IMG/VR virus record: IMGVR_UViG_3300009164_000384
Coordinates: 1 to 22,542 of that record
From: a virus
Length of the DNA stretch: 22,542 bases
Direction: 5' to 3' (one strand)
Part shown: in pieces, positions 2 through 19,753 of the stretch
Layout: every line of letters begins with the position of its first letter
How positions within the stretch are numbered: position 1 is the first letter of the stretch
Translations under genes and position numbers: made by a program
The notes under the pieces: model-generated
Databases searched by the model: none
Told to the model about the DNA's origin: nothing
Seen by the model: the letters and a program-made list of their open reading frames with translations, nothing else

Positions 2-688
2 GGCAGCTATGACTATGAATACTTGAAGCGTACAGCAACTAGTGCCGCCGTAGGAATGGCTCAAGAATTAGGATTGCCTAGTCCTAAAAATGTTACCTGT
101 GTTAAGCCGTCAGGTACTTTGAGTAAAATCATGGATACTACCGAGGGTGTTCATAAGCCGCTGGGCAAGTACATTTTCAACAATGTGCAATTCTCAAAGC
201 ACGACCCAGTAGTAGAAAAACTGCGCGAAGCAAACTACAAGATAATTAATCATCCAGTTGATGACAGTGGCGTGTTAGTTACATTTCCAGTTAGTTGGGA
301 TGGTGTAGTGTTTGATAAAGTTGACGGCAAAGAAGTTAACTTGGAAAGTGCAGTTACACAACTAGACCGTTACAAGTTGCTGCAAACTAGCTGGAATCAG
401 CAAAATACTAGTGTTACTATTAGCTATGATCCTAGTGAAATTAGCGATATTATTAGCTGGTTGCTAGACAACTGGGATTGCTATGTTGGCGTTAGCTTTA
501 TTTATCGAACTGATCCAACAAAAACAGCTAAAGACTTAGGCTATTTATACTTACCACAAGAAGTGGTAGACGAACGTACTTACAAAGATTATGCATCTCA
601 ATTAGGCCCAGTTGTGTTAGATGATGCTAACAGCTTTGACGAAATTGTAGATGCAGAGTGTGCAACCGGGGCTTGTCCCATCCGTTAA
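2..688 (+). CDS. nrdJ: Adenosylcobalamin-dependent (class II) ribonucleoside-triphosphate reductase, C-terminal part
   Basis: The frame is open from the left edge, so the N-terminal two thirds or more lies outside the window. Class II reductases use coenzyme B12 to reduce ribonucleotides to deoxyribonucleotides, and supply phage DNA synthesis in the cytoplasm. Visible landmarks are the segment VTCVKPSGTLSKI, followed by TTEGVHKPLGKY, a substrate-site region typical of the monomeric RTPR-type enzymes. The tail ends CATGACPIR, a CX4C pair placed like the C-terminal swinging dithiol of Lactobacillus RTPR that re-reduces the active site. No start codon is inside the window; the leucine codon at 23-25 is internal. 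A small gene follows after 9 bases in the same direction, then a terminator. The family assignment is firm; the monomeric RTPR subtype is inferred from the tail. Confidence 0.93.
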   Translation, partial: GSYDYEYLKRTATSAAVGMAQELGLPSPKNVTCVKPSGTLSKIMDTTEGVHKPLGKYIFNNVQFSKHDPVVEKLREANYKIINHPVDDSGVLVTFPVSWDGVVFDKVDGKEVNLESAVTQLDRYKLLQTSWNQQNTSVTISYDPSEISDIISWLLDNWDCYVGVSFIYRTDPTKTAKDLGYLYLPQEVVDERTYKDYASQLGPVVLDDANSFDEIVDAECATGACPIR

Positions 689-1641: not shown

Positions 1642-2220
1642 CTACTTAACGTATGGAATATATTTTGCACTGCGATTAATGAGTACGTCCTCCACATGGT
1701 GACGGTTAATATCACAAGCACTACGATTGCCGTAAAGTGCCACTTTAGACTTCAAACAAAGTTTCTCCACATTATCAAACCAACGGTTAGGATCACACCA
1801 ACTAGCTAATTTACAAGCCCTGCGCTCATGATCCACCCCTCCCAAACCACCGTTATAGGCAGCATCAGCAAAAGCATAAGCCTCCCTATTATCCTGAACA
1901 TATTTACTAAAATACTGATAATTATCACGCATCATTAGTGCTAGTGCACGAATTTGTAAGTCTGGACGATCATAAACTACTTGCCAGTTTAAGTCCGATA
2001 GTTCCTTATTATACTTATGCTTTAGGTCTGATAGAGCATCAAACCTAATTGACCCGTCTGCTTTAAAAGCCCTGGTAATCTGACCAAGCCCTGCACCCTC
2101 CTCACGATCACTACGTAATCTGCTGTGTGAATTCCAGCATTTGCTGTGCTGAAGTGATATGCAGGACTCATGCTCTATTAGACTAGCAAGGTATGCGGCT
2201 TTGGGTGTGTGGCCCAGACT
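1642..2220 (-). CDS. Endolysin catalytic domain (SLT/lysozyme-like), open in the -1 frame of the holin-like gene
   Basis: This is the peptidoglycan-cleaving part of the lysis system. The frame is open from a stop at 2221-2223 down to TAG at 1642-1644 and encodes a complete lytic transglycosylase-type fold. Landmarks are SLIEHESC with the likely catalytic Glu of 'ES', then EEGAGLGQIT, the AYNGG motif, and a Cys-rich C-terminal part with YGNRSACDINRHH. The first ATG in this frame (1933-1935) lies after the catalytic Glu, and only a CTG without a ribosome site (2215-2217) lies near the 5' end, so independent initiation is unlikely. Joining to the upstream frame at the CCCAAAG heptamer gives a 318-residue fusion: catalytic Glu about 144, GLGQIT about 170-175, AYNGG about 247-251. 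It is either made by -1 frameshifting or broken by a one-base sequence error. Confidence 0.85.
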   Translation of the reverse strand, partial: SLGHTPKAAYLASLIEHESCISLQHSKCWNSHSRLRSDREEGAGLGQITRAFKADGSIRFDALSDLKHKYNKELSDLNWQVVYDRPDLQIRALALMMRDNYQYFSKYVQDNREAYAFADAAYNGGLGGVDHERRACKLASWCDPNRWFDNVEKLCLKSKVALYGNRSACDINRHHVEDVLINRSAKYIPYVK

Positions 2221-2597
2221 TTATCTTTTTCTTGCTGAACTGTGGGCAGGTGTTGATATGCCTGCTTGGGTATGTAAGTAGCTACCGGTTGTGCATACAC
2301 CTGTGAGCCGAATAGGGAAAGTAGGCCATAGATAATAATGCAAAGTCCTAAAAAACTCAAGCCTGCGCCAGTGGCGGTTTCGCGTGCCTTTTTCATCAGT
2401 GTTTCCATGTCTGCATAGTCAAACAGTGCCCTGCGTGCAAGGTGCGAAAACCACACTGCTACAATGGGGGTAGCTAGCTTAGCTAGAAATGGGATAGTCA
2501 TGTTACCGCCATTAGGGTCGCTGATAAAAAGGTACAGCATAACAATAATGGTGCCGCCAATCATAAAAATATTGCGGAAACGTAAGTGTTCTTTCAT
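2178..2597 (-). CDS. Holin-like membrane protein; probable N-terminal part of a frameshift-fused lysin
   Basis: The zero-frame product has 139 residues with three predicted membrane segments at about 9-26, 35-52 and 78-97. A positively charged MKKAR at 68-72 precedes the third, and the sequence VYA-Q at 100-103 resembles a signal peptidase site. Such a small multi-span protein next to spanins and a lysin fits a holin that permeabilises the inner membrane. The stretch YIPKQAYQHLPTVQQEKDKVW after the third segment is not holin-like and matches the usual lead-in to the SLT lysin domain of related phage lysins. The frame ends 6 codons after K133 of the slippery heptamer. The ATG overlaps the o-spanin stop as ATGA. 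Whether the 139-residue form, the fusion or both are made cannot be decided here. Confidence 0.72.
   Translation of the reverse strand: MKEHLRFRNIFMIGGTIIVMLYLFISDPNGGNMTIPFLAKLATPIVAVWFSHLARRALFDYADMETLMKKARETATGAGLSFLGLCIIIYGLLSLFGSQVYAQPVATYIPKQAYQHLPTVQQEKDKVWATHPKPHTLLV
2199..2205 (-). other. Candidate -1 frameshift site C CCA AAG
   Basis: On the - strand the zero-frame codons CAC CCA AAG contain the heptamer CCCAAAG in the X XXY YYZ phase required for tandem -1 slippage. After slippage the next codons read GCC GCA TAC and enter the lysin frame, while zero frame stops at 2178-2180. The switch falls where the two halves must join to restore the lysin family sequence. No clear upstream Shine-Dalgarno stimulator is seen. 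A small CAGCA/TGCTG hairpin lies well downstream, and I cannot establish a pseudoknot by eye. Confidence 0.55.
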
Positions 2598-2890
2598 GGT
2601 TTGTCCAAATTGGAAAGTTTACGGATAAGTTCTATGCTAGAACTTTGTTTAATTGCACAATCACCGTACAGTCCAATAATTGTGATATAATGTTGTGCAA
2701 TGGTTTCGTAGGTTGCAGGGGTTTGTAATTGTGGCATTTGTTGGCACGGTTGCAGTGATTTAGGGTCTACCACAACCCGCTGCGGAGTTGCGGCGGGAAT
2801 TGGTGCCTGTTCTGGAGATTTTTTTGAAAAAATTCCGCAACCAGTAAGCATTGTAAAAAGGCAAAAACTGATTAAAATATGTTTTTTCAT
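2594..2890 (-). CDS. o-spanin, outer-membrane lipoprotein (Rz1-like)
   Basis: The 98-residue product begins with a lipoprotein signal: MKKH, a hydrophobic stretch, then the lipobox LTGC with Cys at residue 18, giving a mature protein of about 81 residues anchored in the outer membrane. Proline-rich sequence (KKSPEQAPIPAATPQ) follows, as in Rz1-type spanins, and then a probable helical C-terminal part that could contact the i-spanin. Two more cysteines are near residues 49 and 78. Both ends overlap neighbours by four bases (ATGA), so its translation is likely coupled to the i-spanin upstream and the holin-like gene downstream. The role is completion of lysis by fusing inner and outer membranes. 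The call rests on lipobox, size and position rather than on a conserved domain. Confidence 0.78.
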   Translation of the reverse strand: MKKHILISFCLFTMLTGCGIFSKKSPEQAPIPAATPQRVVVDPKSLQPCQQMPQLQTPATYETIAQHYITIIGLYGDCAIKQSSSIELIRKLSNLDKP

Positions 2891-3249
2891 TTTTCGTTGG
2901 CTCGCAAAATTGCTTGATTGATGCTATCCACAAAAACTTCTGATGGTAAGCACTTGCCATTTTCTACAATAGTTACCGGCTGATTTTTTAGCAACTTGCT
3001 AATCTTACCTATATCTCTGCCCAAACGATCCTGCTGTTCGCTTGCACGAGCCTGTGTTTCTGATAAACTTTGCTCTAGCGTAGTAATTTTCTTTTGCAGT
3101 TGTTGTTGTAGTTCTTGCTTAGCCTGTTCACAGGCTAGGTGTGCTTGCTCGTAGCCGCGATTGTAAATGTAGTTATAGACAAAAAATCCGGTTACTGCTA
3201 TGGCAATACATATAATAATACTGATTACTGCTTTAATATCGTTAGCCAT
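2887..3249 (-). CDS. i-spanin, inner-membrane coiled-coil protein (Rz-like)
   Basis: The 120-residue product has one N-terminal membrane segment at about 7-27, no cleavage site, then a long Gln/Lys/Glu-rich coiled coil from about 33 to 90 that would cross the periplasm. It ends in a short region GKCLPSEVFVDSINQAILRA that resembles the C-terminus of Rz-type proteins. With the lipoprotein encoded next it would form the spanin complex needed for outer-membrane disruption in Gram-negative hosts. Its ATG overlaps the stop of the preceding S74 fibre (TAATG), and its stop overlaps the o-spanin ATG (ATGA). Confidence 0.82.
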   Translation of the reverse strand: MANDIKAVISIIICIAIAVTGFFVYNYIYNRGYEQAHLACEQAKQELQQQLQKKITTLEQSLSETQARASEQQDRLGRDIGKISKLLKNQPVTIVENGKCLPSEVFVDSINQAILRANEK

Positions 3250-4451
3250 TACTTAGTTTCCAATTGTGCAATACGCAGTGCTTGTGCATCTACAAGGGTT
3301 TTGAGTTCTTGAATTGCTCGCATCATAGCAAATTGTATATCAGTTTGATATACTACCAACCTTTTACGATCAGGCTCGTCTTCAGTTGGCCAAGCATCTT
3401 CAGTAATTAACTCTGGTGCAACTGCTTGTACGTCTTGCGCTATAACACCTAAATTTAAATCTGCATTATCCGCTTCATTAATATATAAAAAGGTCTTAAT
3501 AGGAATAGCACACAACTTGTCTAGATAATTACCTGCAACAGCAATATTCTTTTTTTCACGCAAATCTGATAAGTTAGTGTTATTAGCAGAATAATTATCA
3601 ATACCACCATTGCTTTTTACACGAAATACAAGTGCAGTAGCATGTTCATATGTATATCCATAAATATTAGCAGGACCTGCTACAGTTGTAGCTTTAAATC
3701 CTATAGCACCTGAACCCATAGTAGCTGCATTTTCAGCTCTTACAGCTACAGTACCTCCTAAACTTCCTGTTCCAGCAGATATTGTGTTTACATTAAACCA
3801 TCCAGCATGTTGGGTAGCAGGACCATTTAAATCAGATTGTTTAACAGTGGCATAAATACCATAACGTGCATTAGTTGGATCGCCACCTCCATCAAAATAA
3901 CCACCATATCCTGAAACGGCTGGACCTCCTGCAATGGTTGCATACACACCATAAGCGTTTGTTGTTCCGCTATTTGATGTATTACTGCAAAAATATGCTC
4001 CGTAATTATTACCAGCATAACCAGTACCAGTATAAATATTTCCTGGAACATAAATGCCGTATTGATCAGTAGCGGAGTGATTTATCTGTAATTTAGCAGT
4101 TCCTGCACTGGATACTCCAAGACCTAATCGTGAATTAGCACTGTCCCAAACAAAATTAGTTGCACCAGCAAAAGTACCAGCATTATTAAATTGTATTTGA
4201 GTAGTACTGCCACCAGGACTAGCACTAATAGTAGCCCAACTAACACTTGTGCCATTAGTAGTTAAATATTTTCCAGTATTACCAGTTTGACTAGGTATTT
4301 CATTTAATGAAGCCCAACTAGCGGTTGTACCATTAGTAGTTAAAAACTTACCACTATTACTAGTTTGTGTTGGAAGTGAAGCGGCTTGACCTAAAATACC
4401 ACTGCTATCTATATATTGAACGTGTGCAGCTAAATTACGTGAAATAGTCAT
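3249..4451 (-). CDS. Tail fibre protein with C-terminal peptidase S74 chaperone domain
   Basis: This 400-residue fibre starts with tandem short modules of the type TGKYLTTNGTSVSWA, seen in many phage fibres, followed by TTQIQFNNAGTFAGATNF and a beta-rich middle part of irregular repeats containing YGVYAT and YGIYAT. The C-terminal region from about 295 begins SDLREKKNI and contains LGVIAQDVQAV, the hallmark of the intramolecular chaperone of the endosialidase class (S74). This domain trimerises the fibre and cleaves itself at the start of the SD motif, with a helical tail (QELKTLVDAQALRIAQLE) after it. It lies between the oxygenase and the spanins, one of four S74 fibres here. The receptor is not predictable. 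Confidence 0.88.
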   Translation of the reverse strand: MTISRNLAAHVQYIDSSGILGQAASLPTQTSNSGKFLTTNGTTASWASLNEIPSQTGNTGKYLTTNGTSVSWATISASPGGSTTQIQFNNAGTFAGATNFVWDSANSRLGLGVSSAGTAKLQINHSATDQYGIYVPGNIYTGTGYAGNNYGAYFCSNTSNSGTTNAYGVYATIAGGPAVSGYGGYFDGGGDPTNARYGIYATVKQSDLNGPATQHAGWFNVNTISAGTGSLGGTVAVRAENAATMGSGAIGFKATTVAGPANIYGYTYEHATALVFRVKSNGGIDNYSANNTNLSDLREKKNIAVAGNYLDKLCAIPIKTFLYINEADNADLNLGVIAQDVQAVAPELITEDAWPTEDEPDRKRLVVYQTDIQFAMMRAIQELKTLVDAQALRIAQLETK

Positions 4452-4456
4452 CTTAT

Positions 4457-5005
4457 TTACCTAAAACGCGGGCCGCTAAGCCACATAGTTGCTGATATGC
4501 GTAAACCACTAGTAACTGGTGTTACACGATGTTCTAAGATACTAGGAAATGCAATTATAGTACCCTTTATAAGTGGTGCTACATACTCACTATACAGTCT
4601 AACTTGCAATTCACCACCCACAAACCATTTGGGATCGTTAAGTAGGCAGATTACAGTTACCTTACGATCTGTGAACAGCCCACTAAGTGGAAAATTGTCT
4701 ACATGCCAATCATAGTGTTGGCCTGACTGGTACTCAGCAAATTGCACTGATTCATGTGTGGTAATATCATAGTTCCATAAACATTCCGCACTAGCCTTTT
4801 CACCAAATCCACGCATTAGGTTACCAAACCAGTGCGTGTGATCAGCAAATCTAATAGTGGTATTGCGATTTTTATGTGAGTGTTCTGTACCATCCACACC
4901 CATATGAGCATCACGACTAGGCAGTTGTAAGAATTCTTGTGTGGCTAAGTCACATAATTCTTGGGGAATTTGACCTAACCACCAAATTGGTAAGTGTTTG
5001 TTCAT
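4457..5005 (-). CDS. 2-oxoglutarate/Fe(II)-dependent oxygenase (prolyl 4-hydroxylase-like, PKHD type)
   Basis: Enzymes of this family hydroxylate protein or small-molecule substrates with Fe(II), 2-oxoglutarate and O2. In the 182-residue protein the facial triad is visible as H101 and D103 in HYDWHVD and H159 in LEHRV, and R169 in SGLRIS is placed to bind 2-oxoglutarate. NDPKWFVGGELQV between them is the usual core strand region with GGEL. I choose the ATG at 5003-5005 because it overlaps the stop of the upstream gene as ATGA; a TTG six codons earlier is possible but less likely. The gene is surrounded by tail-fibre genes, including a collagen-like fibre, which suggests a virion protein substrate. 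That substrate assignment is inference. Confidence 0.88.
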   Translation of the reverse strand: MNKHLPIWWLGQIPQELCDLATQEFLQLPSRDAHMGVDGTEHSHKNRNTTIRFADHTHWFGNLMRGFGEKASAECLWNYDITTHESVQFAEYQSGQHYDWHVDNFPLSGLFTDRKVTVICLLNDPKWFVGGELQVRLYSEYVAPLIKGTIIAFPSILEHRVTPVTSGLRISATMWLSGPRFR

Positions 5006-5580
5006 TGTGGTGCTTGTGGCCAAGTTACTTGTTGTGGAAAACCAGATTGTTGTGGTAGGTCACGTAATTGCTGACGATAAATAGCCCATAATTCACGAGT
5101 AATATTGGGCACGTCAGGTAGTTGAGTCCAATCACTGGCTATAAGTAACTGATTTCTGCCATTTCGTACGGCCAAACTACGTTCTGCAGTAGCATCTAGC
5201 GGTGCTGGTTTACTGGCTATAACATCTTGAAATTCACTAGTAATCCAAGTTAAATTAGTAACAGTTTGAATTTCTGCGGTTATAGTGCTCAACACAAATT
5301 GTGCAGCACCAGCTTTAATTTCCGCAATTTTTGCCAAACCTAGTGCCTCTTGAACCCAACTAATTGCCTGAGCTTCACTAACATTTTCTAGTGGTGTGTA
5401 GTTGCTATCGTCCGGCAATCCCAAGTTTGACTGACCGAAAGCTACGTGCCGCTGTCCACCTAGTGCACTAGCATCTGTAACTAGTGCCCATTCTATCATA
5501 GTAACCAAATTGGTTAATTGTCCTAAAACTGGAAATACTTCTAGTCGAAGGATTTTCCAGGTTTGAGTTATTGCTTGCAT
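5002..5580 (-). CDS. Tail fibre assembly chaperone-like protein
   Basis: The 192-residue protein appears to have two parts. The N-terminal half (about 1-85) resembles a short uncharacterised phage domain, with ITQTWKILRLEV near the start and SEAQAISWVQEALG at its end. The C-terminal quarter reads RNQLLIASDWTQLPD and IYRQQLRDLPQQSGFP, then VTWPQAP. This is the signature of the phage tail assembly chaperone family (Phage_tail_APC-like), often placed directly after fibre genes. It probably assists folding or attachment of a neighbouring fibre or adhesin. A good AAGGA ribosome site precedes the ATG, and the stop overlaps the oxygenase start (ATGA). Confidence 0.75.
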   Translation of the reverse strand: MQAITQTWKILRLEVFPVLGQLTNLVTMIEWALVTDASALGGQRHVAFGQSNLGLPDDSNYTPLENVSEAQAISWVQEALGLAKIAEIKAGAAQFVLSTITAEIQTVTNLTWITSEFQDVIASKPAPLDATAERSLAVRNGRNQLLIASDWTQLPDVPNITRELWAIYRQQLRDLPQQSGFPQQVTWPQAPQ

Positions 5581-5595
5581 TTTTATAAATCCTTG

Positions 5596-6423
5596 TTAGG
5601 TAACGTAGAAAGCAATTCTACCCTGATTACCTGCTTGACCGTGTGTGCTAGTTCTGCTACCTGCAGGACTTACAGAACCACGACCACCTTGACCATAGTA
5701 GCTGGTGCCTTCGGCATAGTTAGCACTGCCATATGTACCACCATCACCGCCAGGGCTAGAGTAATAGGAATAAGTTCCGCCAGCTAGTGTATAAGTGCTA
5801 CCAGTACCGCCAGAGTTGTTGTTACCTGCTCCGCCATTACCACCACCGCCACCAGCATTACCAGTACCGCTAGTATCTCCGCCACCACCCGCATTGCCAT
5901 TACCGCTAGTACCACCGGCTCCGTTTAGGTAACTGCCGCCGCTGGCATAACCAAAACCTCCGCCTGCACCACCAGTACAACTTACAGTACCAAATCCAGA
6001 CATAACACTAGCACTACCAGCACTACCGGCTGCTTGACCAGTACCGTATGCACCACCACCGCCTACAGTTAAACTTAGGCTACTTACTCCGGATAAGGAG
6101 ACTGCAAAGTAGTAGGCATATCCACCACCACCACCACCGCCTTTACCCGGACCTGGAGTGGTAACAGTTTGCGCGCCACCGCCACCGCCCCCACCACCAA
6201 CACAAATTGCGGTGATGATACTAGCACCACTAGGCTTAGTCCAAGTAAAACTGCCGACTGTAACATAGTCGTAAAGTGTAGGACTAAAATTACTTTTACC
6301 ACGAAACTGTGACATACTCACTGGTAATGACAATCCTGCAGGACTAGCTGAATTTGCCAAACTACTTCTGGCAAACTCAGTTTGAATTGCTGATAGTGTA
6401 ATTGCACCCGTAGGTAGTGCCAT
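5596..6423 (-). CDS. Glycine-rich tail adhesin, 275 aa
   Basis: The N-terminus (ALPTGAITLSAIQTEFARS, ending SMSQFRGKS) matches a short conserved attachment module found on many phage tail proteins. It is followed by YDYVTVGSFTWTKPSGAS and then about 190 residues dominated by glycine runs (for example VGGGGGGGGA) interspersed with Ser, Thr, Tyr and Asn. Such glycine-rich sandwiches are known in adhesins of T-even-like phages, where loops between glycine strands bind surface receptors. There are no enzymatic motifs. The ATG overlaps the stop of the collagen-like S74 fibre (TAATG), with GAGG just upstream, so the two may be translated together and act at the same fibre tip. It is the only adhesin of this class downstream of the S74 block. 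Confidence 0.82.
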   Translation of the reverse strand: MALPTGAITLSAIQTEFARSSLANSASPAGLSLPVSMSQFRGKSNFSPTLYDYVTVGSFTWTKPSGASIITAICVGGGGGGGGAQTVTTPGPGKGGGGGGGYAYYFAVSLSGVSSLSLTVGGGGAYGTGQAAGSAGSASVMSGFGTVSCTGGAGGGFGYASGGSYLNGAGGTSGNGNAGGGGDTSGTGNAGGGGGNGGAGNNNSGGTGSTYTLAGGTYSYYSSPGGDGGTYGSANYAEGTSYYGQGGRGSVSPAGSRTSTHGQAGNQGRIAFYVT

Positions 6424-7838
6424 TATAACCTCGCCTTAATATTATCTAACTCCAGCTTAAGCTGTTTAACAGCTTCGATTAAGAGTCCAGTAATATTACC
6501 GTATGCAACTGAAAGATAACCATCACTACCCACCTTAACTACTTCTGGTATAACAGGTTCGACTTCCTGAGCAATAACACCTAGTGCTAGCTGATTGGTT
6601 TGCAAACTACGATAGCGTACGCCACGTAGTTGCATGACTTTTTCTAGTGCCCTTTCAATAGTAGCAATTTCGGTTTTTAGTCTGCTGTCACTACTAGCAG
6701 TTACGTCCACAAAAGTAGGACTGTTTGAGGTAGCTACACCCTGATTCATAGCAGTAGCATATGCATTTGATGTGCCACTAGGACCGGTAGGACCCGTTGG
6801 ACCTGTAGGTCCAGTTGGTCCAGCTACTGTAGATGCTGCACCTGTAGCACCTGTTGGTCCCGGTGGGCCTGCTACTGTAGAGGCAGCTCCTGTGGGGCCT
6901 GTAGGTCCAGTAGGGCCTGTAGGACCTGCAGGACCAGTTGGGCCAGGAGAACCTGTAAGACCTGTTGGGCCTGTAGGACCAGTTGGTCCGGCTACTGTAG
7001 ATGCTGCACCTGTAGCACCTGTTGGTCCCGGTGGGCCTGCAACACCCTGCGGACCTGTAGGTCCAGGACTACCTGTAGAACCTGTTGGACCAGTAGGGCC
7101 CGCTACAGTAGATGCGGCTCCTGTAGGACCTGTGGGACCGGTAGGACCTGCAACGCCTTGAATACCTTGTGAACCTGTAGGGCCTGTGGGTCCGGTCGGG
7201 CCTGTTGGACCTGTGGGACCTTGTGGAACTGTAAAATTAAATATGGCCGCAGCAGTAGTACCACTGTTAGTCACTGCTGCAGGGCCAGTGCTAGTGGTAC
7301 CTATAGTAACCGTAGCTGCTGCACCTGTTGGGCCGGTACTGCCAGTAGGGCCTGTGGGTCCTGTAACACCCTGTGATCCAGTTAAACCTGTAGGGCCTGT
7401 AGGCCCCGGTGCACCTGTAGGACCTGTAGGACCCGTAGGTCCTGTAATACCACTAGTATTAGTCCATTTACTAGTAGTGCTATTATAAACTAGTAATTGA
7501 TTATTAGTAGGTGTGGTAATTTGCACATCTGATAAGTTTGCCACAGGAATAGTAATATTCTGTGTACCATCAAAACTTACACCAGCAATAGTTCTACTAG
7601 TAGTTAATTTTGCTGCGCTACCAGTGGTATTTTGATTTAACACTGGAAATGTACAATTAGTTAATACACCAGCACTAGGAGTGCCTAGATTTGGGGTTAC
7701 CAAAATAGGACTAGTATTTAAAACATTACTGCCGCTTCCAGTACTAGTGTTAACTCCAGTACCGCCTGCAGCTTCACCTAAAATACCAGTTACACTAATA
7801 GTATCTGCTAAAAACGATAAATTGCGAGAATTACTCAT
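6423..7838 (-). CDS. Collagen-like tail fibre with peptidase S74 domain
   Basis: This 471-residue fibre has an N-terminal module of the common phage type ([20 protein letters not shown], then TCTFPVLN-like text). From about 130 to 355 it consists mainly of Gly-X-Y triplets, mostly Gly-Pro-Thr, forming a probable collagen triple helix. One interruption ([19 protein letters not shown] to FNFTVPQ) is a known spacer in bacterial and phage collagen-like proteins, and AASTVAGP recurs four times. The C-terminal domain from about 383 (SDSRLKTEI, then [10 protein letters not shown]) is an S74 trimerising and self-cleaving chaperone. Gly-Pro-Thr collagens can carry sugars or hydroxyl groups on such triplets, and an oxygenase gene lies close by. 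Perfect DNA repeats inside may make the length variable. Confidence 0.9.
6823..7040 (-). repeat. 50-bp perfect direct repeat within the collagen-like region
   Basis: Positions 6823-6872 and 6991-7040 are identical over 50 bases and start 168 bases apart, a multiple of nine, so loss or gain by recombination would remove or add whole Gly-X-Y triplets in frame. The repeat encodes the recurring AASTVAGP segment and flanking triplets. Sequence around both copies is similar but not identical. Confidence 0.85.
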
Positions 7839-7868: not shown

Positions 7869-8081
7869 TTATTGTGCCGCTACTTGCAATGGTTCCAGGT
7901 TTTCTGTAGTCCAAAAATCTTTAGTAATCATCACAGCAAGATGGTCTTTATTGCGTTTTAGGCAATCTGCCCAATCAGCATCAGACATAAACTCTGGCTT
8001 GCCGCCGTTGATCAGGTTTACTGAATCCATGGCGGCTTTATAGTGTTGAGCAATCTGCTCGGGGGTCAAAATTTCAATCAT
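7869..8081 (-). CDS. Small hypothetical tail-region protein, 70 aa
   Basis: The product starts MIEILTPEQIAQHYKAAMDS and continues with a Trp-containing acidic helix (SDADWADCLKRNKDHL) and MITKDFW. It is soluble, largely helical, with no signal peptide or membrane segment. Its ATG overlaps the stop of the preceding S74 fibre as ATGA and no Shine-Dalgarno motif is visible, so it is probably made by translational coupling. Its place between two fibres suggests a role as fibre accessory or chaperone, but I do not recognise a family with known function. Coding potential is supported by the overlap and tight packing. Confidence 0.68.
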   Translation of the reverse strand: MIEILTPEQIAQHYKAAMDSVNLINGGKPEFMSDADWADCLKRNKDHLAVMITKDFWTTENLEPLQVAAQ

Positions 8082-10066
8082 GATTTTGCCTGTTGAAGTT
8101 GATTGATTTGAGATTTAAGATTTGCAACCTCGGCTGAAAGTTCTTTTATTGCGTTGATCAGCGGCGTGACGAACATCTCTCGGCTGATCCCCTGAATTCC
8201 GTTCGGTTCAATGTGCCAACCGCCAAATGTGTCTACACCCTCAGCTTCTAACGCAGCTTTGACCTCCTGAGCGATCAGACCATGCATGACCGTGGTCGTG
8301 TTCTTGTTGTTTTCTTCGTTATACTGCGGGTTATCCAGTTCGAGTTCGTTCGTGGCTTTCCACTGGTATTTTACCGGATTCAACCTATTAATAAACGAAA
8401 GACCCAACGAATCACTTTCAATGTTCTTTTTCAGACGGACATCAGAGGCTTGAATCCAAGTCGCGTTGGTGTCGTAGTGGCAATAAACGCGGTTGTTCAA
8501 TTTGCCCAGCGTCACATAGTCGCCGCCAATCCCGTTACAACCGTATCCAATCACGATGGCGTAGTAATCGCCAGCCGTACTGCCATATGCGCCATTTCCT
8601 ATAATCACACTCTGGGACGCGGTGGTGTAGGTTGTACCAACATAACCCGCCTGTGTCCCAATAAGGATTATATTGTTTCCAGACGTAATTCCATAACCTG
8701 CTTGGTAGCCAATCGCAATGTTGTTATTATCGGTTGCGGAATTAAGAGCATATGAACCAATTGCAATGTGCTGAGAACCAGTAGCATTGTTCTGACATGC
8801 ACCAATTCCAATAGCAACACTGTTACTTCCAGTGGTATTGCTTCTAAGCGCACCATTGCCAACAGAGGTGTTGTTGGTTCCGGTTGTATTTGCATAACCA
8901 GCCCCGTCGTTAAACCAACCACTACCCACAAACGTATTGCCTGATCCAGAGGTGTTGCTGTAGCCAGAGTTTGTACCAATGAACGTATTTCCGGGATAAT
9001 CAGAGCTTGAAGAATTTGAACTGTAGCCAGCGTTATAACCAACTGCTACAACTCCTTGTCCTTTGGCATGGTTGCGTAGGGCTTGGTAGCCAATTGCCGT
9101 GTTGCCGACGCCGTTGCCGGTGCTACCGCCAGCCAAGTACAGCGCATACGCACCTACTGCCACGTTATTGTTGAACGAATACGCTACGTTGGTACCAGAA
9201 TAACCAGCTTGATATCCGATTGCTACGTTTTGAATACCAGAGACATTTGAAAGTAATGCTTGTGTTCCTACAGCGGTATTGTAATAACCAGTAGTATTAA
9301 GTTTAGAAGACTCCCACCCAACGGAAACGCTTTGAGTTCCAGTCGTGTTAGAGTTCATGCTATTCATACCAACGGCTACATTATAACTGCCGGAAGTCGT
9401 ATTTCTTAAAGACAAAGTTCCTATAGCGGTATTTTGCTCACCAGTGGTATTGGTGTAAAGAGCCTGATATCCAATTGCTATATGACTGTTTCCAATGGTA
9501 TTATTGTAAAGTGATTGAACTCCGTATGCAGAATTATTTGCACCAGAACTACTGGCGTTATTGTATGACTGAAAACCAAAAGCGCAATTATAACTACCGG
9601 TCAGCGTTAAGCCAGCCTCATTGCCCACGGCAGTGTTGTAACTTCCGGTGGAGTTAGCCATACAATATCGACCAACTGCCGTATTGCTTCGGCCAGTAAT
9701 ATTAGTTTGACCAGCAATTGAACCAATGTAACAATTATCAAAACCGGTTGTAGTATTTAATCCTGCCTGATATCCAATTGCTGTGTTGTTTGTACCAGTA
9801 GTGCTATTGGCTGCTTGATAACCAAACGCAGTGGTAAATGGAGTTGTAGAACCTGTAGAACCAAATACAGTTCCACGAACTGCGGGTGTTGCAGTACTAG
9901 CACCAAATGCGCTGCCTGCTACAGTAGGTGCATTTGCAAAGTCTACTACTTGCGCAGCACTAATAGTTACGGCTGTTGTAGCAGCCGTTTGCAGTTGCAG
10001 TACACCACTGGTGTCTGAAGCAATAGTTACACCACCACTAGTGCCTGCGTTAATAATACTAGCCAT
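8078..10066 (-). CDS. Long tail fibre of YadA-head-like repeats with peptidase S74 domain
   Basis: The 662-residue protein begins with a short module rich in Ser/Thr/Val (SIINAGTSGGVTIASDTSG). From about 80 to 520 it is built of degenerate repeats of the form NTAIGYQAL..NTTG, the pattern of left-handed beta-roll trimeric adhesin heads, ending in a domain around YGYGCNGIGGDYVTLGKLNN. The S74 domain begins near residue 540 (ASDVRLKKNI) and contains HGLIAQEVKAA; a helical coiled tail ends the protein. It is probably a trimeric, self-cleaving receptor-binding fibre. Its repeat and S74 parts contain no CTAG and use more C/G-ending codons than the N-terminal module, which hints at an imported distal part on a resident N-terminal attachment module. 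Confidence 0.88.
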   Translation of the reverse strand: MASIINAGTSGGVTIASDTSGVLQLQTAATTAVTISAAQVVDFANAPTVAGSAFGASTATPAVRGTVFGSTGSTTPFTTAFGYQAANSTTGTNNTAIGYQAGLNTTTGFDNCYIGSIAGQTNITGRSNTAVGRYCMANSTGSYNTAVGNEAGLTLTGSYNCAFGFQSYNNASSSGANNSAYGVQSLYNNTIGNSHIAIGYQALYTNTTGEQNTAIGTLSLRNTTSGSYNVAVGMNSMNSNTTGTQSVSVGWESSKLNTTGYYNTAVGTQALLSNVSGIQNVAIGYQAGYSGTNVAYSFNNNVAVGAYALYLAGGSTGNGVGNTAIGYQALRNHAKGQGVVAVGYNAGYSSNSSSSDYPGNTFIGTNSGYSNTSGSGNTFVGSGWFNDGAGYANTTGTNNTSVGNGALRSNTTGSNSVAIGIGACQNNATGSQHIAIGSYALNSATDNNNIAIGYQAGYGITSGNNIILIGTQAGYVGTTYTTASQSVIIGNGAYGSTAGDYYAIVIGYGCNGIGGDYVTLGKLNNRVYCHYDTNATWIQASDVRLKKNIESDSLGLSFINRLNPVKYQWKATNELELDNPQYNEENNKNTTTVMHGLIAQEVKAALEAEGVDTFGGWHIEPNGIQGISREMFVTPLINAIKELSAEVANLKSQINQLQQAKS

Positions 10067-11763
10067 TATCTAGTCTCCAATTGTGTGATACGAGCAGTAA
10101 GTTCCTGAATTGCTTTGACTAAAACAGGAATTAGCTTTGTTTCTGTAATACCAAGCGTTTCATCATTTTCATCGTCAGCAATTAACAGATCTTTAGCAAC
10201 AGCACCATATTGCTTTTCAAGTTTAATAACATCTTGTGCAAGAAAACCTATCTGACTCTTGGTTTCTTTTAGTGTACCATCTGGGTTCCAATTCTCATAC
10301 TTGGACCGTTTGTCCCACTTAAATTCTACAGGTCGCAATTCATTGATAAAGTTTAAACCATACTTTGTATCAACAACGTCTGCCTTGTCTCTTGCATCGG
10401 ATGTAACTGTCCATGCTACTACAATGTATGCATTGGTAATATTATTGTCGCCAATAACAACGCGGTTTGATTGGGTGGTAAAAGCACCGCCTGGAGCCGT
10501 TGAGCGCCCTGCATTAATCCCTAAAAATGTATTATACGAACCAGTTGTTAAAGAATATCCGGCGTAGGTTCCAATACACGTGTTTCCATCTCCAGAAGAT
10601 GGTGTATAAAAAGTCTGGTATCCCATTGCCACGTTTTGGTTGCCGGTAAAATATGCCCCTGTGCAAATTTCAGAACCAAAGAAATTGTTGTATGTCCCCG
10701 AAGTTATTAATCTTCCAGCAGAATAACCAAACGCTGAGTTTTGATTTGCAGTACAACTGCTCAGTGCATCACGGCCAAACGCACAGTTTGCTCCAGAACT
10801 AATGGTCGATGAAAGTGTGTTGTAACCAACAGCAGTATTGTGCGATCCGCTAGTTATTCCAATACCTGCCTGCCAACCAACCGTCGTATTACCACTTGCC
10901 GTAGTAGCATTATACAATGCTGTGTAGCCAATTGCTGTATTGTTGCTTCCAGAAGTGTTGTTGTATAAAGCACGACCCAATGCTACGTTGGTACTGCCAG
11001 TGGTATTTGAATAACCGGAAGCAGCACCCACAAACGTATTATCAACACCAGTTGTAGTAGAAAATCCCGATTGCCATCCAATAAATGTACTTCCAGCATT
11101 CTCGCCGCTAGTGGCAGCGTATACTCTTGCGGCACGAAATCCAACCGCAGTTAATGAATTTCCGGTTGTGTTTGTATACGCAGCCCCATCACCAACCACT
11201 GTGTTTTGACCTCCAGTAGTAAAATACAGAGTTTGCGATCCGATGGCTATATTGGTGTTTTGTGCAGTGTTTGAATAAAGGGCTTGGTACCCAATAGCAA
11301 CGTTATTAGAACCTGAAGAGGTGGAAGCCAAGGCATCTCTGCCAATTGCTATATTGCTTGCTCCATTGCTAACACTGCTAAGACTTAGAGGACCAATTCC
11401 AACGTTATTAGAACCAGAAATACCGGTTCCACTCCCACGCATTGCCGATGAGCCTAGTGCAGTGTTGTAAGTCCCAGATGTTTGGTTATATAGGGACTGA
11501 TAACCAACAGTAGTATTATTAATTCCCGTATTAACAGAAGCGGCTTCAAATCCAAGAGCTGTTAAAAATGGTGTTGCAGAGTTTGTTATGCCTGTTAAAC
11601 CAGCAGCGGCCCAACTCATCACACCAGCTGTGGTAGACGTAAGAGCCTGACCATTTACTGTAGGTGTTGTAGTTGGCAATGTGTAACTTTGTATGCCTGC
11701 TACACCTGGAGCACTTATACTAACTGATCCCGAGGTGTCGCCTTGTAAAACAATTGCGCTCAT
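10066..11763 (-). CDS. Tail fibre of YadA-head-like repeats with peptidase S74 domain, second copy
   Basis: This 565-residue protein has the same plan as the fibre encoded after it: a short N-terminal module (SAIVLQGDTSGSVSISAPG, then IQSYTLPTTTPTVNGQALTS), degenerate NTAIGY-type repeats from about 80 to 440, and an S74 domain from about 454 (TSDARDKADV, later IGFLAQDVIKLE) with a coiled-coil tail. The two are paralogous in design but diverged in sequence, so they may serve different receptors or form a hetero-fibre. The start has an AAGGA ribosome site; the stop overlaps the next ATG as TAATG, with GGAG upstream of it. Function is inferred as host recognition. Confidence 0.87.
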   Translation of the reverse strand: MSAIVLQGDTSGSVSISAPGVAGIQSYTLPTTTPTVNGQALTSTTAGVMSWAAAGLTGITNSATPFLTALGFEAASVNTGINNTTVGYQSLYNQTSGTYNTALGSSAMRGSGTGISGSNNVGIGPLSLSSVSNGASNIAIGRDALASTSSGSNNVAIGYQALYSNTAQNTNIAIGSQTLYFTTGGQNTVVGDGAAYTNTTGNSLTAVGFRAARVYAATSGENAGSTFIGWQSGFSTTTGVDNTFVGAASGYSNTTGSTNVALGRALYNNTSGSNNTAIGYTALYNATTASGNTTVGWQAGIGITSGSHNTAVGYNTLSSTISSGANCAFGRDALSSCTANQNSAFGYSAGRLITSGTYNNFFGSEICTGAYFTGNQNVAMGYQTFYTPSSGDGNTCIGTYAGYSLTTGSYNTFLGINAGRSTAPGGAFTTQSNRVVIGDNNITNAYIVVAWTVTSDARDKADVVDTKYGLNFINELRPVEFKWDKRSKYENWNPDGTLKETKSQIGFLAQDVIKLEKQYGAVAKDLLIADDENDETLGITETKLIPVLVKAIQELTARITQLETR

Positions 11764-12144: not shown

Positions 12145-15100
12145 TTATCTAGCGCGAGCGTATTTTAGGGGTGATTCAGCAAAGGCTGCAAAGATGTAAG
12201 TATTAGCTGACAAGTTAAAGTCAGTAAATGTATTACGTAATTTAAATCCATTTGACAGAAAATCTAGCAATGTAAAATTAGTGCCAATGGTTGTATTATT
12301 AGCCTGAAGTGATTCACCAATAACATTGTAAGTATTTCTTGCTGAATCTAAAATACGCCAATCGGCGGCATTTGTAATATTTTTTATTAACACGTAAGCA
12401 GGTCTAAATCCACAATATACAAACGTGCCATCAGCAGCACCATTACCCACATAGCTACCAAACTTACTATAACCCGGTACTTCTGCCCAACAATAGGCAA
12501 CGTAAGTGCCCCCACTAGTATTAAGTGCTCCATCATTGCCAATTGAAAATACAGTGCTAGTAGGTGCTGTACTATTCCAAAATGTTGCTGCAGTTTGTGC
12601 TAAATCTGTTGTATCAAGTGTTACAAACTTAGTTGCAGTTATGTCATTATGATAAACAATCCATGCGCGAACTGTATTTCGTTGTTTAACAATCATAAAT
12701 TTTGGTGCAATACCAAGACCATGCCCCACAGTAGAATTAGCACCATTACCTGTATAAGTTACCACACTAAATCCTGCTTGAGGATTAGCACTTATTGTAC
12801 TAGTAATTGATCCGACAGTGTTAGTTACTGCCGTTCCGCCACCAGCCCAATTCCACCCAACGTATGTAAACGAACTTCCGTTGAGTTGATTAGAGTTGTC
12901 GCTTATAGTAAATCCAAAATTGGTCGCGGTGATATTTGCGTTATAAGTAGATTCAGCCGCTTGTGAAGGTAAATCAAGAAGTTTAGTATATCCACGAACA
13001 CTGTCGATTAAATCGTGTTGGTGTGTCCCTGAAGTTCTTGCTTGTAACCAGACCATTCCGCCGTTAGTAGCAGCGTCAATACCAGTAGCAATAACATTAT
13101 ATGCGCTAGTACCCGGATAAGTAGCGATACCAAAATATTTGCCGGGCAACTTACCTGCCCCAGACTCCGGCAAATTTTGTGTGCATAGTGCTTTGTATCC
13201 GCTGGGTGCGGTGTAGGAGAAGGGGCGTTGACCAAAATTAGCGGTTGTTACGTATCCAGAATCATAAGCAACTGCCATTGGAATAACAGTTTTACCATAA
13301 GCTGCAGAACTTGTCCAAGTTATTGTACCTTGACTAACTCCGTTAATATAAAAAACTATGGTTCCTGCATCTATATCAACAGCAATACCAACTATTGTGC
13401 CTGATGGATGAGCTGTTGATGTGTAGGTAACTCTAGCATTATAGTCAATCTGATATTTGTTATCATCACAAAGCAAAACTGAACCAGCAGCTGCGTTTGC
13501 ATCTTGAGGATTACCAGAACTAAAGTTTATGGTCGGTACCATTATACCAAAAAAGGTATTCTGACCACCAGATATGTATTCCCAGTACCATTTGCCTGTT
13601 GTAATACCTATTGTTCCACCAATAGCATTCCAATTTGAAGTGGAGTTTGTAGCTACTAAATTGCCGTTAGAGTATGCTACAGTTCCAATTGGTTTAATTA
13701 ATGGATTTAGTGTACAATAATTACCACGCACCTCACCACCCGCACCAGTATCCACACCGTAGTTGGTAGGTGAGTCTACTAGGCTATCATTGTCTACTCC
13801 AGCACTAACTGAAAAATTATAAGGTGTAAAGTTATTTCCATTGCCTGATAGGTCTTTGCCTAGTGTAACGGCAGTGGTATTTGAATTATCTGCAAAATTT
13901 AGATAGAATCCATTGGTACCATAACTGCCAGTATACTGTAGTGGAGTCCAGACCTTGGTGCTAGGTTCAACATATCCAAAACTGGCTGGTGTTAGTTGTT
14001 GACCATCAATGAAATTTAGCTCGGTCATGTAAACATTAGCATAACTAGCACCAAATGTATTATTTGATCCTATAACATGAGCTTGCGCTTGGTTGGCTAA
14101 TAAATCTTGATTTTGTGAGGGGTACACTACGGCTGAAAATGATGTTACTTGAGCACCGTTAACATATAATTTTGCTCGATCAGTACTACTTGATTGTGTA
14201 CTATCAATTGCTAAGATAACATGATACCACGCGGAAAAATCTCGGTATACAGCAGTGGTAATAAAATGTAGTTGATATCCACCTGAATAGGAATATACTC
14301 TAATAGTATCGTCAGTGACAAATCTGATTACAAATCCATCAAAACTATTTGTAACAAACAGCTCGTCATTACCACCAGACTTTACTCGTTTTACCCACGC
14401 ACTCCATGTCCAAGTTTTACGATTACCAGCACTACTAGGAGTGCGACTCAAATAAGCACTGTCAGCACTGTTAAATCTCAAACTGCGAGCAATCTGATAG
14501 TCTGGTGTGGCAAATAACCTTGGTGCCGTCGGCGCTAACACACCACTACTCAAAAAAGTGTGTACAATATGTCCATTGCTGTAGTTTAGGGTGCCGCCGG
14601 TAAAATATTGAACGTTGCCGGGATACCTGATGACTACAATGCCTGAGCCGCCAGTTGCGCCAGTGCCAAATCCGGGATACCCGCCTCCACCTCCACCTCC
14701 ACCTCCACCTGTGTTGGTAGTTCCATTCGTAGCATTAACAGAATTGCTGTCTTTACCACCAGTGCCGCCCCCGCCGACCCCGCCGACACAACCAATTTGA
14801 CCGTTGTTTCCACCGCCACCGCCACCGCCAGCGTAAACCGCCCTAGTGCCGGTAATATCTGACGCAATACCCGCTCCGCCAATACCAGAGCCTATTGCTT
14901 GAGTTTCTGGCAAACCAACCGTTCCAGCACCTCCGCCACCACTTCCGCAATAATAATTTGGAGAACCGCTACTTACACCAGCCCCAGCATTACCCTGACC
15001 CGAAGTGCCTGATCCGCCAGCGCCACTATCATAATTTGCACCGCCGCCAGAACCACCTGCCGCACCAGAATTTACACCACTACCTGCTGATGATCCCCCG

Positions 15101-15435
15101 CCGCCGCCGCCGATTGCAATGATTCGGCCTGTTGATGCTCCAGATGACGCGGCATCAAAAACAGAAGCATTTCCATTAACGCCTCGATTGGCAATTAAAG
15201 TAGAACCTGCGCCGCCACTACCAACCGTCACATAATAAGAAGAACCAGTTGTTATTCCAGCATATCCTTGAAGTAAACCACCAGCACCACCCCCGCCGCC
15301 ACCGATACTGCCACCGCCTCCACCACCAGCAACTACCAAGTATTCTACTACAGTGGGCGGAGTACCCTCCCAGTCTAAATTCTTAATTGCCTGATTTACC
15401 TGGCTTAGGGTCCAGATTCCACTGTATTTGGGCAT
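12145..15435 (-). CDS. Large multi-module tail adhesin: glycine-rich, LamG-like, SPRY-like
   Basis: At 1096 residues this is the largest complete gene here. Residues about 1-28 (MPKYSGIWTLSQVNQAI) form an attachment stub. About 29-275 is a glycine-rich domain entered by VEYLVVAGGGGGG and left by GGSGIVVIRYPG. About 310-510 resembles a LamG/concanavalin-type jelly roll (RSLRFNSADSAYLSR, TWSAWVKR, YVNGAQV). About 590-745 resembles a SPRY domain (GITTGKWYWEY, YQIDYNARV, IVFYINGVSQG). The final 350 residues (KYFGIATYPGTSAYN, VGHGLGIAPKFMIVK, SNGFKL) match an uncharacterised C-terminal domain common in marine phage tail proteins. Lectin-like modules suggest binding of host glycans; this is inference. 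A clear AGGAG site precedes the start. Confidence 0.85.
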   Translation of the reverse strand: MPKYSGIWTLSQVNQAIKNLDWEGTPPTVVEYLVVAGGGGGGSIGGGGGGAGGLLQGYAGITTGSSYYVTVGSGGAGSTLIANRGVNGNASVFDAASSGASTGRIIAIGGGGGGSSAGSGVNSGAAGGSGGGANYDSGAGGSGTSGQGNAGAGVSSGSPNYYCGSGGGGAGTVGLPETQAIGSGIGGAGIASDITGTRAVYAGGGGGGGNNGQIGCVGGVGGGGTGGKDSNSVNATNGTTNTGGGGGGGGGGYPGFGTGATGGSGIVVIRYPGNVQYFTGGTLNYSNGHIVHTFLSSGVLAPTAPRLFATPDYQIARSLRFNSADSAYLSRTPSSAGNRKTWTWSAWVKRVKSGGNDELFVTNSFDGFVIRFVTDDTIRVYSYSGGYQLHFITTAVYRDFSAWYHVILAIDSTQSSSTDRAKLYVNGAQVTSFSAVVYPSQNQDLLANQAQAHVIGSNNTFGASYANVYMTELNFIDGQQLTPASFGYVEPSTKVWTPLQYTGSYGTNGFYLNFADNSNTTAVTLGKDLSGNGNNFTPYNFSVSAGVDNDSLVDSPTNYGVDTGAGGEVRGNYCTLNPLIKPIGTVAYSNGNLVATNSTSNWNAIGGTIGITTGKWYWEYISGGQNTFFGIMVPTINFSSGNPQDANAAAGSVLLCDDNKYQIDYNARVTYTSTAHPSGTIVGIAVDIDAGTIVFYINGVSQGTITWTSSAAYGKTVIPMAVAYDSGYVTTANFGQRPFSYTAPSGYKALCTQNLPESGAGKLPGKYFGIATYPGTSAYNVIATGIDAATNGGMVWLQARTSGTHQHDLIDSVRGYTKLLDLPSQAAESTYNANITATNFGFTISDNSNQLNGSSFTYVGWNWAGGGTAVTNTVGSITSTISANPQAGFSVVTYTGNGANSTVGHGLGIAPKFMIVKQRNTVRAWIVYHNDITATKFVTLDTTDLAQTAATFWNSTAPTSTVFSIGNDGALNTSGGTYVAYCWAEVPGYSKFGSYVGNGAADGTFVYCGFRPAYVLIKNITNAADWRILDSARNTYNVIGESLQANNTTIGTNFTLLDFLSNGFKLRNTFTDFNLSANTYIFAAFAESPLKYARAR
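14684..14710 (-). repeat. Hexanucleotide microsatellite (GGAGGT-type) inside the glycine-rich coding region
   Basis: On the + strand CCTCCA is repeated four times and a half without mismatch; the sense strand reads alternating GGT GGA codons and encodes polyglycine. Copy-number changes by slippage would keep the frame and alter only the number of glycines. Each unit also contains GGAGG, identical to a strong Shine-Dalgarno core. Confidence 0.8.
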
Positions 15436-15814: not shown

Positions 15815-16681
15815 TTAAAAGGTTACAGAACCGGAACTAGTCCAGATATAAATCTGATAACCACCAATATAACGAATTTGTGGATTGCCTGTGGTACTGA
15901 CTGGAGGCGCTAAGTTTTGTGGATAACGAATGATAACTATACCACTACCGCCATTGCCACCAGTTCCTCCTTGTGTTCCATTATCACCACCACCACCACC
16001 ACCACCACCTGTGTTTGCTAGACCATTATTAGCAGTTGTATTAGATGTTGTTCCGTTGCCACCACCAGCAGCACCTAAACCACCTGACCATCCAGTTGAA
16101 TAAGTTGTACCACCGCCACCACCACCTCCAGCATATTGAATTGGTAAGCCAGAAATAGAAGAAACAATACCTGTACCACCATTACCAGCAGTTGCTGTTG
16201 TAACTACAGTGCCGACGCTACCGGACCCACCACCGCCTCCACCAGCGGTAGTTGTACCAAGGGTTGTGCCACCAGCTGCCCCGTTAAATCCTTGTCCAGA
16301 AATGCCTGAACCCCCTGAGCCATTTTGATAAGCCCCGCCACCACCACTTCCACCAGTTCCGCCTGAAGAACCAAAACCTGCACCATAACCACCACCAGTT
16401 GTAATGATTGAACTAAATACAGAGTTAGATCCTTGCACCCCATTAGCACCTGTACCAGCAACACCACCAGAACCACCAGCACCAATAATTATAGTTAAAG
16501 ATGTACCTGTGGTAACAGCAAAACCAGCGGCCTGTAATAAACCACCTGCACCACCACCACCTGCAGTTCTTGCACCACCACCGCCACCGCCAGCTACTAC
16601 CAAATACTCAATAGTTGCAGTCTTTTGATCCCGCATAGGATTAAAGTTTGTGCTTAAAAAACCTCCTAAATATTGACTCAT
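15815..16681 (-). CDS. Glycine-rich tail adhesin, 288 aa
   Basis: A short N-terminal stub (SQYLGGFLSTNFNPMRDQK) leads into TIEYLVVAGGGGGG and about 200 residues of glycine-rich sequence with interspersed aromatic and Asn/Thr loops, closed by GGSGIVIIRYPQN. The C-terminal 40 residues (VSTTGNPQIRYIGGYQIYIW, then SSGSVTF) form a closing module shared with the two other glycine-rich proteins encoded upstream. This suggests a common architecture of attachment stub, polyglycine sandwich and end cap. Likely function is receptor recognition at a fibre tip. It has a TAAGGA ribosome site. Confidence 0.82.
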   Translation of the reverse strand: MSQYLGGFLSTNFNPMRDQKTATIEYLVVAGGGGGGARTAGGGGAGGLLQAAGFAVTTGTSLTIIIGAGGSGGVAGTGANGVQGSNSVFSSIITTGGGYGAGFGSSGGTGGSGGGGAYQNGSGGSGISGQGFNGAAGGTTLGTTTAGGGGGGSGSVGTVVTTATAGNGGTGIVSSISGLPIQYAGGGGGGGTTYSTGWSGGLGAAGGGNGTTSNTTANNGLANTGGGGGGGGDNGTQGGTGGNGGSGIVIIRYPQNLAPPVSTTGNPQIRYIGGYQIYIWTSSGSVTF

Positions 16682-18889: not shown

Positions 18890-19753
18890 TTAAAAAGTTA
18901 TTGTGCCACTGGCCACAAACACATAAACGCGCCAGCTTCCTGCGACATAAGTTTGTGGGCTGCCAGTGGTTGATACGGCTAAGGCTAGATAACTTGGATA
19001 ACGGATGACTACAATGCCGCTGCCGCCTGCACTACCTGCGTAAACACCATTGCCAGCACCTCCGCCGCCTCCACCAGTATTTGCTGTTCCAGTAGTTCCA
19101 CTAACAAGACCATTGCTTATACCGCCATTGCCACCGCCGCCTGCCCCAAGTCCTACAGTTCCGCTAGTGGTCCAGGCAGCGCCACCACCACCACCTGCAT
19201 ACTGAACCGGTGTTCCTGTAATATTAGATACTATGCCAGTACCACCATTACCGCCGTTAGATGTATTACCCCCGCCGCCGGCGCTGCCAGCGCCACCACC
19301 ACCACCATTATAAGTGGTACTAGTTACTCCACCGCCGCTATTTCCTTGTCCTGCGGTGCCTGCAGCGCCTGAATAGTTTCCGGATCCACCGCCGCCGCTA
19401 CCTCCACTATTTGCACCGCCTACATCGCCGCCCCCGGCGCCGCCACCTATGGTTGTGATATTTCCAAAAACACTATTACCGCCATTAGTTGCTGATACAG
19501 AAGCATAAACACCTGCTGCACCACCATTTCCACCGGCACCGATAGTAACAGTGATACTTGAACCAATAGTAATAGGATAACCGGAACCGGTTAATAATCC
19601 TCCAGCCCCGCCACCTTGCCCTCTCGCTCCGGCTGCGGTACCAGATCCGCCACCACCACCAGCAACTACTAAATACTCTACTGTGGTTACCGGACCGTTT
19701 AGACCAGTTACCTGACCGTTAGATAAAAAATTGCCACTATACTTAATGGACAT
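18890..19753 (-). CDS. Glycine-rich tail adhesin, 287 aa
   Basis: The plan is the same as in the 288-residue paralogue encoded downstream: stub MSIKYSGNFLSNGQVTG, entry strand TTVEYLVVAGGGGGS, about 200 residues of glycine-rich repeats, exit strand GGSGIVVIRYPSY, and end cap AVSTTGSPQTYVAGSWRVYV to SGTITF. The loops between glycine runs differ from those of the paralogues, as expected for receptor-specific variation. The ribosome site is AGGGG. The neighbours are other adhesins and a small structural protein. Confidence 0.82.
   Translation of the reverse strand: MSIKYSGNFLSNGQVTGLNGPVTTVEYLVVAGGGGGSGTAAGARGQGGGAGGLLTGSGYPITIGSSITVTIGAGGNGGAAGVYASVSATNGGNSVFGNITTIGGGAGGGDVGGANSGGSGGGGSGNYSGAAGTAGQGNSGGGVTSTTYNGGGGGAGSAGGGGNTSNGGNGGTGIVSNITGTPVQYAGGGGGAAWTTSGTVGLGAGGGGNGGISNGLVSGTTGTANTGGGGGGAGNGVYAGSAGGSGIVVIRYPSYLALAVSTTGSPQTYVAGSWRVYVFVASGTITF

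Follow-up and report, generated by a model that had tools for sequence, protein, structure and literature searches.

A phage lysin frame probably expressed by programmed -1 ribosomal frameshifting from a holin-like gene

The window analysed here is a 22,542-nucleotide stretch of viral DNA (IMG/VR record IMGVR_UViG_3300009164_000384, positions 1 to 22,542) whose minus strand carries a lysis cassette in the order i-spanin, o-spanin, holin-like gene and lysin frame, the last ending at 1642 and followed by PhoH (Table 1). Stop-start overlaps of the form ATGA lie at 2594-2597 (o-spanin/holin-like gene) and 2887-2890 (i-spanin/o-spanin) on the minus strand, which suggests translational coupling across the whole cassette. 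Our subject is the lysin, which appears to be expressed by programmed -1 ribosomal frameshifting from the holin-like gene. The window's lysin frame contains no ATG, GTG or TTG ahead of the catalytic Glu, and its first ATG stands at 1935, far past that residue. It is offset by -1 from the holin-like gene, and the slippery heptamer lies in phase with the holin frame shortly before that frame ends. A shift at the heptamer would join 133 holin-frame residues to 185 lysin residues in a predicted product of 318 residues. The initial annotation, made from these letters only, had described an open lysin frame with its first ATG beyond the catalytic Glu, a -1 offset, a heptamer in X_XXY_YYZ phase, a zero frame ending six codons past the slip, and products of 139 and 318 residues; coordinates, phase, stop and sizes were rechecked or recomputed, and all stood.

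Table 1. Positions of the lysis cassette, slip site and downstream stem in the window
Feature	Position	Strand	Remark
i-spanin	2887..3249	-	several Rz-like spanin PHROGs, best expectation value (E) 8.9e-4
o-spanin, lipoprotein, lipobox LTGC	2594..2890	-	PHROG_456, E 4.7e-7
Holin-like open reading frame (ORF), zero frame, three helices, 139 residues	2597-2178	-	133 codons through the slip-site Lys
Third helix followed by GSQVYA/Q (slash, cleavage), proposed internal signal sequence	2291..2366	-	putative signal-peptidase site after Ala102, inferred from sequence
Lysin frame, -1 relative to holin-like gene	open 2220-1642	-
Slippery heptamer C_CCA_AAG	2205-2199	-	in phase with holin frame
Lysin after slip, SLT-type lytic transglycosylase domain, 185 residues	1642..2199	-	PHROG_669 endolysin, E 1e-13
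Outer helix, 5' arm, CCUUGCUAGUCU	2180..2191	-	alignment A3 columns 15-26; starts 7 nucleotides past heptamer
Zero-frame stop TAA	2178..2180	-	six sense codons past slip site
Catalytic Glu region of lysin (EHES)	from 2175 downward	-
Inner 12-bp helix, 5' arm	2159..2170	-	A3 columns 36-47; 97.1% of cells paired
Inner helix, 3' arm	2085..2096	-	A3 columns 110-121
Outer helix, 3' arm	2070..2081	-	A3 columns 125-136

A search of IMG/VR with the window's lysin returned 70 relatives, 21 of which (L002-L022) have the same arrangement, and a further member (L100) was recovered by DNA pattern, bringing the total to 23 contigs including the window. All 23 share the -1 offset and a C_CCA_AAR heptamer, and in each the zero frame ends at a TAA exactly six codons past the slip; the heptamer and frame offset, whose conservation the initial annotation had wished to see compared among related phages, are kept in every close relative, and the observed frame arrangement is confirmed as real. 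These loci form one clade (support 98/89, present in 99% of bootstrap trees) with high synonymous divergence (mean pS 0.58); their holin-like part has a median ratio of nonsynonymous to synonymous divergence (dN/dS) of 0.07, and their lysin one of 0.12. Because dN/dS is low despite high pS, both parts are maintained by purifying selection. The lysins of L021 and L022 are identical, and a search for more clade members with L100 and L021 as queries returned no new contig.

Constraint at the slip site goes beyond that on the encoded protein. Among the aligned members the codons of the slip region are CAC (21 of 21), CCA (21 of 21) and AAG (20 of 21, with AAA in the remaining one), and L020 and L100 carry CCCAAAA in place of CCCAAAG. 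In 22 loci (the window and L002-L022), the ATG-started ORFs of at least 100 codons total 30,670 codons and contain 22 in-phase C_CCA_AAR motifs, one in each locus and every one at the slip site; the presence of the motif at the junction is therefore more than chance. Invariant amino acids with more than one possible codon occupy 134 columns, and in 13 of these a single codon serves all 21 members; the sole four-fold degenerate column in this group is the slip-site Pro CCA, and the sole six-fold degenerate one is a Leu with the codon CTT, located at the base of the stem described below. The slip site is thus under selection of its own, beyond the amino-acid sequence. When heptamers were surveyed in E. 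coli, shifting was most frequent at C_CC.A_AA.G (54% with the IS3 pseudoknot), and C_CC.A_AA.A counted among the shift-prone motifs (PMC4066793).

Downstream of the heptamer lies a long conserved stem, in which an inner helix encloses a 62-nucleotide segment and the whole candidate stimulator spans about 120 nucleotides. The consensus fold (alifold) over 130 nucleotides has an energy of -17.0 kcal/mol (z -6.7 versus column shuffles), and the stem pairs are kept in 93.5% of cells, compared to 30-47% when the pairing is slid. Both-sided, compensatory changes occur at three stem pairs, among them a double change from C-G to U-A at pair 25/126 in six of 20 distinct rows. Folds of single sequences recover the same pairing in most aligned members other than L100 (mean z -3.0 for the tested sequences, L100 included), and in nine members z is -3.4 at the site versus -1.2 to +0.4 at control offsets elsewhere in the gene. 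When codons were shuffled synonymously with the protein kept, mean z was -3.7 and the real stability was reached in 35 of 4,000 trials. Duplex z averages -3.9 in the frameshift clade versus -0.3 in continuous-frame relatives with similar amino acids at this place, and synonymous conservation peaks at lysin codons 36-45, coinciding with the 3' arms of the stem. The distance of 7 nucleotides between heptamer and stem falls within the 5-9 nucleotide range for stimulators of -1 frameshifting. A local hairpin within the first 40-80 nucleotides after the heptamer was considered and rejected (mean z positive), and no consensus pairing was found within the 62-nucleotide apical loop.

Comparison with more distant relatives places the frameshift form as one of three architectures. 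In the first, a separate holin gene is accompanied by a lysin that carries a signal peptide of its own (L023, L040); in the second, a single continuous ORF of about 300-330 residues encodes a holin domain and then the lysin (viral contigs L037, L045, L061 and others); the third is that of the window and its clade. Continuous fusions also occur in Pseudomonadota genomes, mostly Betaproteobacteria (Duganella, Acidovorax, Parazoarcus, Ideonella). On the genome contigs examined (L117-L139, mostly Betaproteobacteria) such genes are common and presumably belong to prophages; one Duganella aquatilis genome holds two copies (L118, L120). The spacing from a conserved Trp to the catalytic Glu is equal in all three architectures, and the predicted frameshift product aligns without a gap across the junction to distant continuous or signal-peptide relatives (for instance W-ATHPK/AAYLASLIEHES in the window versus W-PDHPTPAYFGALVEHES in L037). 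Continuous-frame relatives outside the clade have neither the RNA stem nor the frame offset.

By sequence family and fold the lysin is an SLT lytic transglycosylase endolysin. An AlphaFold model was made for the continuous-frame relative L057 (mean predicted local distance difference test score, 79); its lysin part finds MltF as the best PDB match (E 8e-4), and MltC and MltE also match. In the lysin alignment (A6) E16, E18 and S19 are invariant, as are six cysteines, whose presence would be in keeping with an oxidising periplasm. Neither the lysin nor the holin-like protein has a significant Pfam match, and annotated phages searched at the DNA level yielded no match.

All three of the comparative checks called for by the initial annotation turned out in its favour, and its interpretation is well supported. 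Together, these data lead us to propose, with a probability of roughly 0.9, that synthesis of the lysin proceeds by programmed -1 ribosomal frameshifting. A ribosome translating the holin-like mRNA would reach C_CCA_AAG, where the long stem beginning 7 nucleotides downstream would stall or strain it and the Pro and Lys tRNAs would move back by one base to pair with CCC AAA. Without a slip, translation would end six codons on and release the 139-residue holin-like protein; with one, it would give the 318-residue holin-lysin fusion, such that one mRNA would supply the membrane protein and its fusion to the enzyme in a fixed ratio.

The most viable alternative, which we nonetheless consider improbable, is that the lysin is a separate cytoplasmic protein begun at a non-canonical start within the holin gene, such as the CTG at 2217. 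A conserved Val-Trp in the holin frame does yield an NTG in the lysin frame at this position in most members (CTG, TTG, ATG or GTG), but in L020 the NTG is followed by a lysin-frame TGA and L100 has no such start at all. In both of these members the TGA falls one codon ahead of CCC AAA (TGA ACA CCC AAA), and no ATG, GTG, TTG or CTG lies between it and the catalytic Glu; a separate conventional lysin start is therefore excluded in L020 and L100. No consistent Shine-Dalgarno sequence accompanies the putative start, the invariant heptamer and RNA stem would be left unexplained, and the product would lose a holin-frame segment of about 30 residues that is conserved in continuous-frame relatives. 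Less probable still is transcriptional slippage, which would likewise restore the frame at a repetitive site. Such slippage normally requires a long homopolymer; the runs in CCCAAAG are only three long, and the phase of the heptamer, the six-codon tail and a stem at 7 nucleotides suit a ribosome rather than a polymerase. We regard termination-reinitiation at the zero-frame TAA as very unlikely: the TAA does fall inside the lysin frame and two genes upstream use ATGA coupling, but only one lysin-frame codon, ATA (ATT in L008 and L009), shares bases with the stop and it comes immediately before the catalytic Glu, the ATG just downstream belongs to the holin frame, and slip site and stem would be without a role. 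A lone -1 offset in one contig usually reflects a fault in sequencing or assembly or a broken gene, and a single-base indel in the CCC/AAA run was the plain alternative of the initial annotation. This reading is refuted because the 22 other assembled contigs share the offset, with all 23 assembled separately at a pS of about 0.58 and the lysin under purifying selection.

Several points weigh against programmed frameshifting as we propose it. The shift itself is a prediction from sequence comparison, and the first product is a putative holin, named from weak family matches and gene position. The initial annotation had suggested folding the downstream RNA in search of a pseudoknot; the structure is there, as a long-range conserved stem, but no pseudoknot was found downstream of the heptamer. 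We also looked for a convincing upstream Shine-Dalgarno stimulator at the slip site and did not find one; anti-Shine-Dalgarno pairing about 12-13 nucleotides upstream is weak (mean -2.3 kcal/mol), and a stimulator of this type is not a required feature. Finally, the slip site is retained in L100, the member that has diverged furthest, and the same stem is not (duplex z -0.3). Because of this combination the stimulator may vary across the clade, and in L100 it may have been replaced by another fold. On the reverse strand of that contig, at about 590-740, we observed a different predicted fold that starts later and contains a 7-bp CACGAGU/ACUCGUG pairing.

The holin-like protein probably also has a part in export of the lysin. 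Its homologue in L100 matches PHROG_8226 'holin' weakly (E 2.9e-4), the window's own protein (P0002) has no PHROG match and no protein match among annotated phages, and its gene lies between spanins upstream and the lysin downstream. Three helices stand at the N-terminal end of the L057 model. In the holin-like protein, the basic residues found at its N-terminus and in the stretch that joins helices 2 and 3 suggest a predicted N-in, C-out topology. The VYA motif after helix 3 is kept in all aligned members, and VYA/Q aligns with the signal-peptide sites of separate-gene lysins (AHA/QDVKTYIP in L023, for example). Helix 3 and its V-x-A site thus probably double as a Sec signal for lysin export. 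Three helices would insert the fusion into the membrane and leave its C-terminus in the periplasm, helix 3 and V-Y-A/Q would serve as signal sequence, and signal peptidase could release the SLT lysin into the periplasm; since helix 3 would act in this way, the fusion may also be the export form of the lysin. We lean towards a fuller picture, with appreciably less confidence than in the frameshift itself, in which an efficient slip site and a purpose-built stem of about 120 nucleotides determine the proportion between free holin and fusion, holin helix 3 exports the lysin as a Sec signal, and shift efficiency, in place of independent expression of a lysin gene, sets the enzyme dose and the time of lysis. 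Frameshifting would on this account act as a setter of lysis timing.

Known bacterial cases of -1 frameshifting (dnaX; the IS3-family elements IS911 and IS3; the phage tail genes g/t) resemble the present one in their in-phase X_XXY_YYZ heptamer, short spacer and 3' stem, and in an early zero-frame stop that yields a short and a long product from one mRNA. They differ in that none pairs a holin with a holin-lysin fusion as its two products, and the window's stimulator differs from theirs in its span of about 120 nucleotides and a 62-nucleotide apical segment without consensus pairing. Related SLT endolysins with 43-47% identity are found in Stenotrophomonas phage Sonora, Morganella phage Mecenats66 and YuA-like phages. 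Sonora and Mecenats66 have an annotated holin gene directly upstream that overlaps the endolysin start, but they keep two genes, with a lysin that has its own start, and the Sonora holin has no detectable relation to the window's holin-like protein. The lysis protein of phage MS2 is not an enzyme, nor is it fused to a holin. Recoding and overlap have been invoked for the MS2 lysis gene, according to titles cited in PMC5009743. For lysins with a frameshift, PRFect (PMC10885494) points to a lactococcal paper of 1994; judged by its title, that work concerns a different host and no holin fusion, and we take it as a lead only. A further parallel is a natural holin-endolysin fusion of Clostridium sporogenes, which is likewise a holin translationally fused to an endolysin but has a TpeE-family holin, a Gram-positive host and a continuous frame, with no frameshift reported in the portion of that account consulted (PMC9527704).

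The initial annotation regarded such a control of lysis timing as not known to have been described, and a literature search, with most subscription journals outside its reach, likewise found no earlier report of frameshifting that gives a holin and a holin-lysin fusion. Both -1 frameshifting and continuous holin-endolysin fusion were already known; their combination into a holin/holin-lysin output appears to be new. The familiar examples of programmed frameshifting in double-stranded DNA phages are tail and capsid genes, and here it appears to run a lysis switch, in which one start site and one mRNA would provide two products at a set ratio. With two-gene, continuous and frameshift relatives at hand, the ways in which phages adjust the ratio of holin to enzyme can readily be compared. 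Automatic annotation would miss or truncate such a lysin, and cassettes without an annotated lysin may therefore hide the same arrangement.

Elsewhere in the window, an ORF at its edge on the opposite strand (2-688, plus strand) appears to resemble the C-terminal part of ribonucleotide reductase; Pfam gives no match for it at E 1e-3, and the name thus comes from our reading of the translation. Four minus-strand proteins (3249-4451, 6423-7838, 8078-10066 and 10066-11763) have Peptidase_S74 intramolecular chaperone domains near their C-termini, one of them together with collagen-like GPTG repeats, and a 2OG-Fe(II) oxygenase (4457-5023, minus strand; PF13640, E 1.4e-16) lies within the fibre gene cluster. 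Five Gly-rich proteins are also encoded on the minus strand (5596-6423, 12145-15435, 15815-16681, 16692-18881 and 18890-19753). Four of the five share a VEYLVVAGGGGGG-type motif, the one tested belongs to Pfam Gly_rich_2, and the five form an expanded, apparently paralogous family that is probably related to tail fibres.
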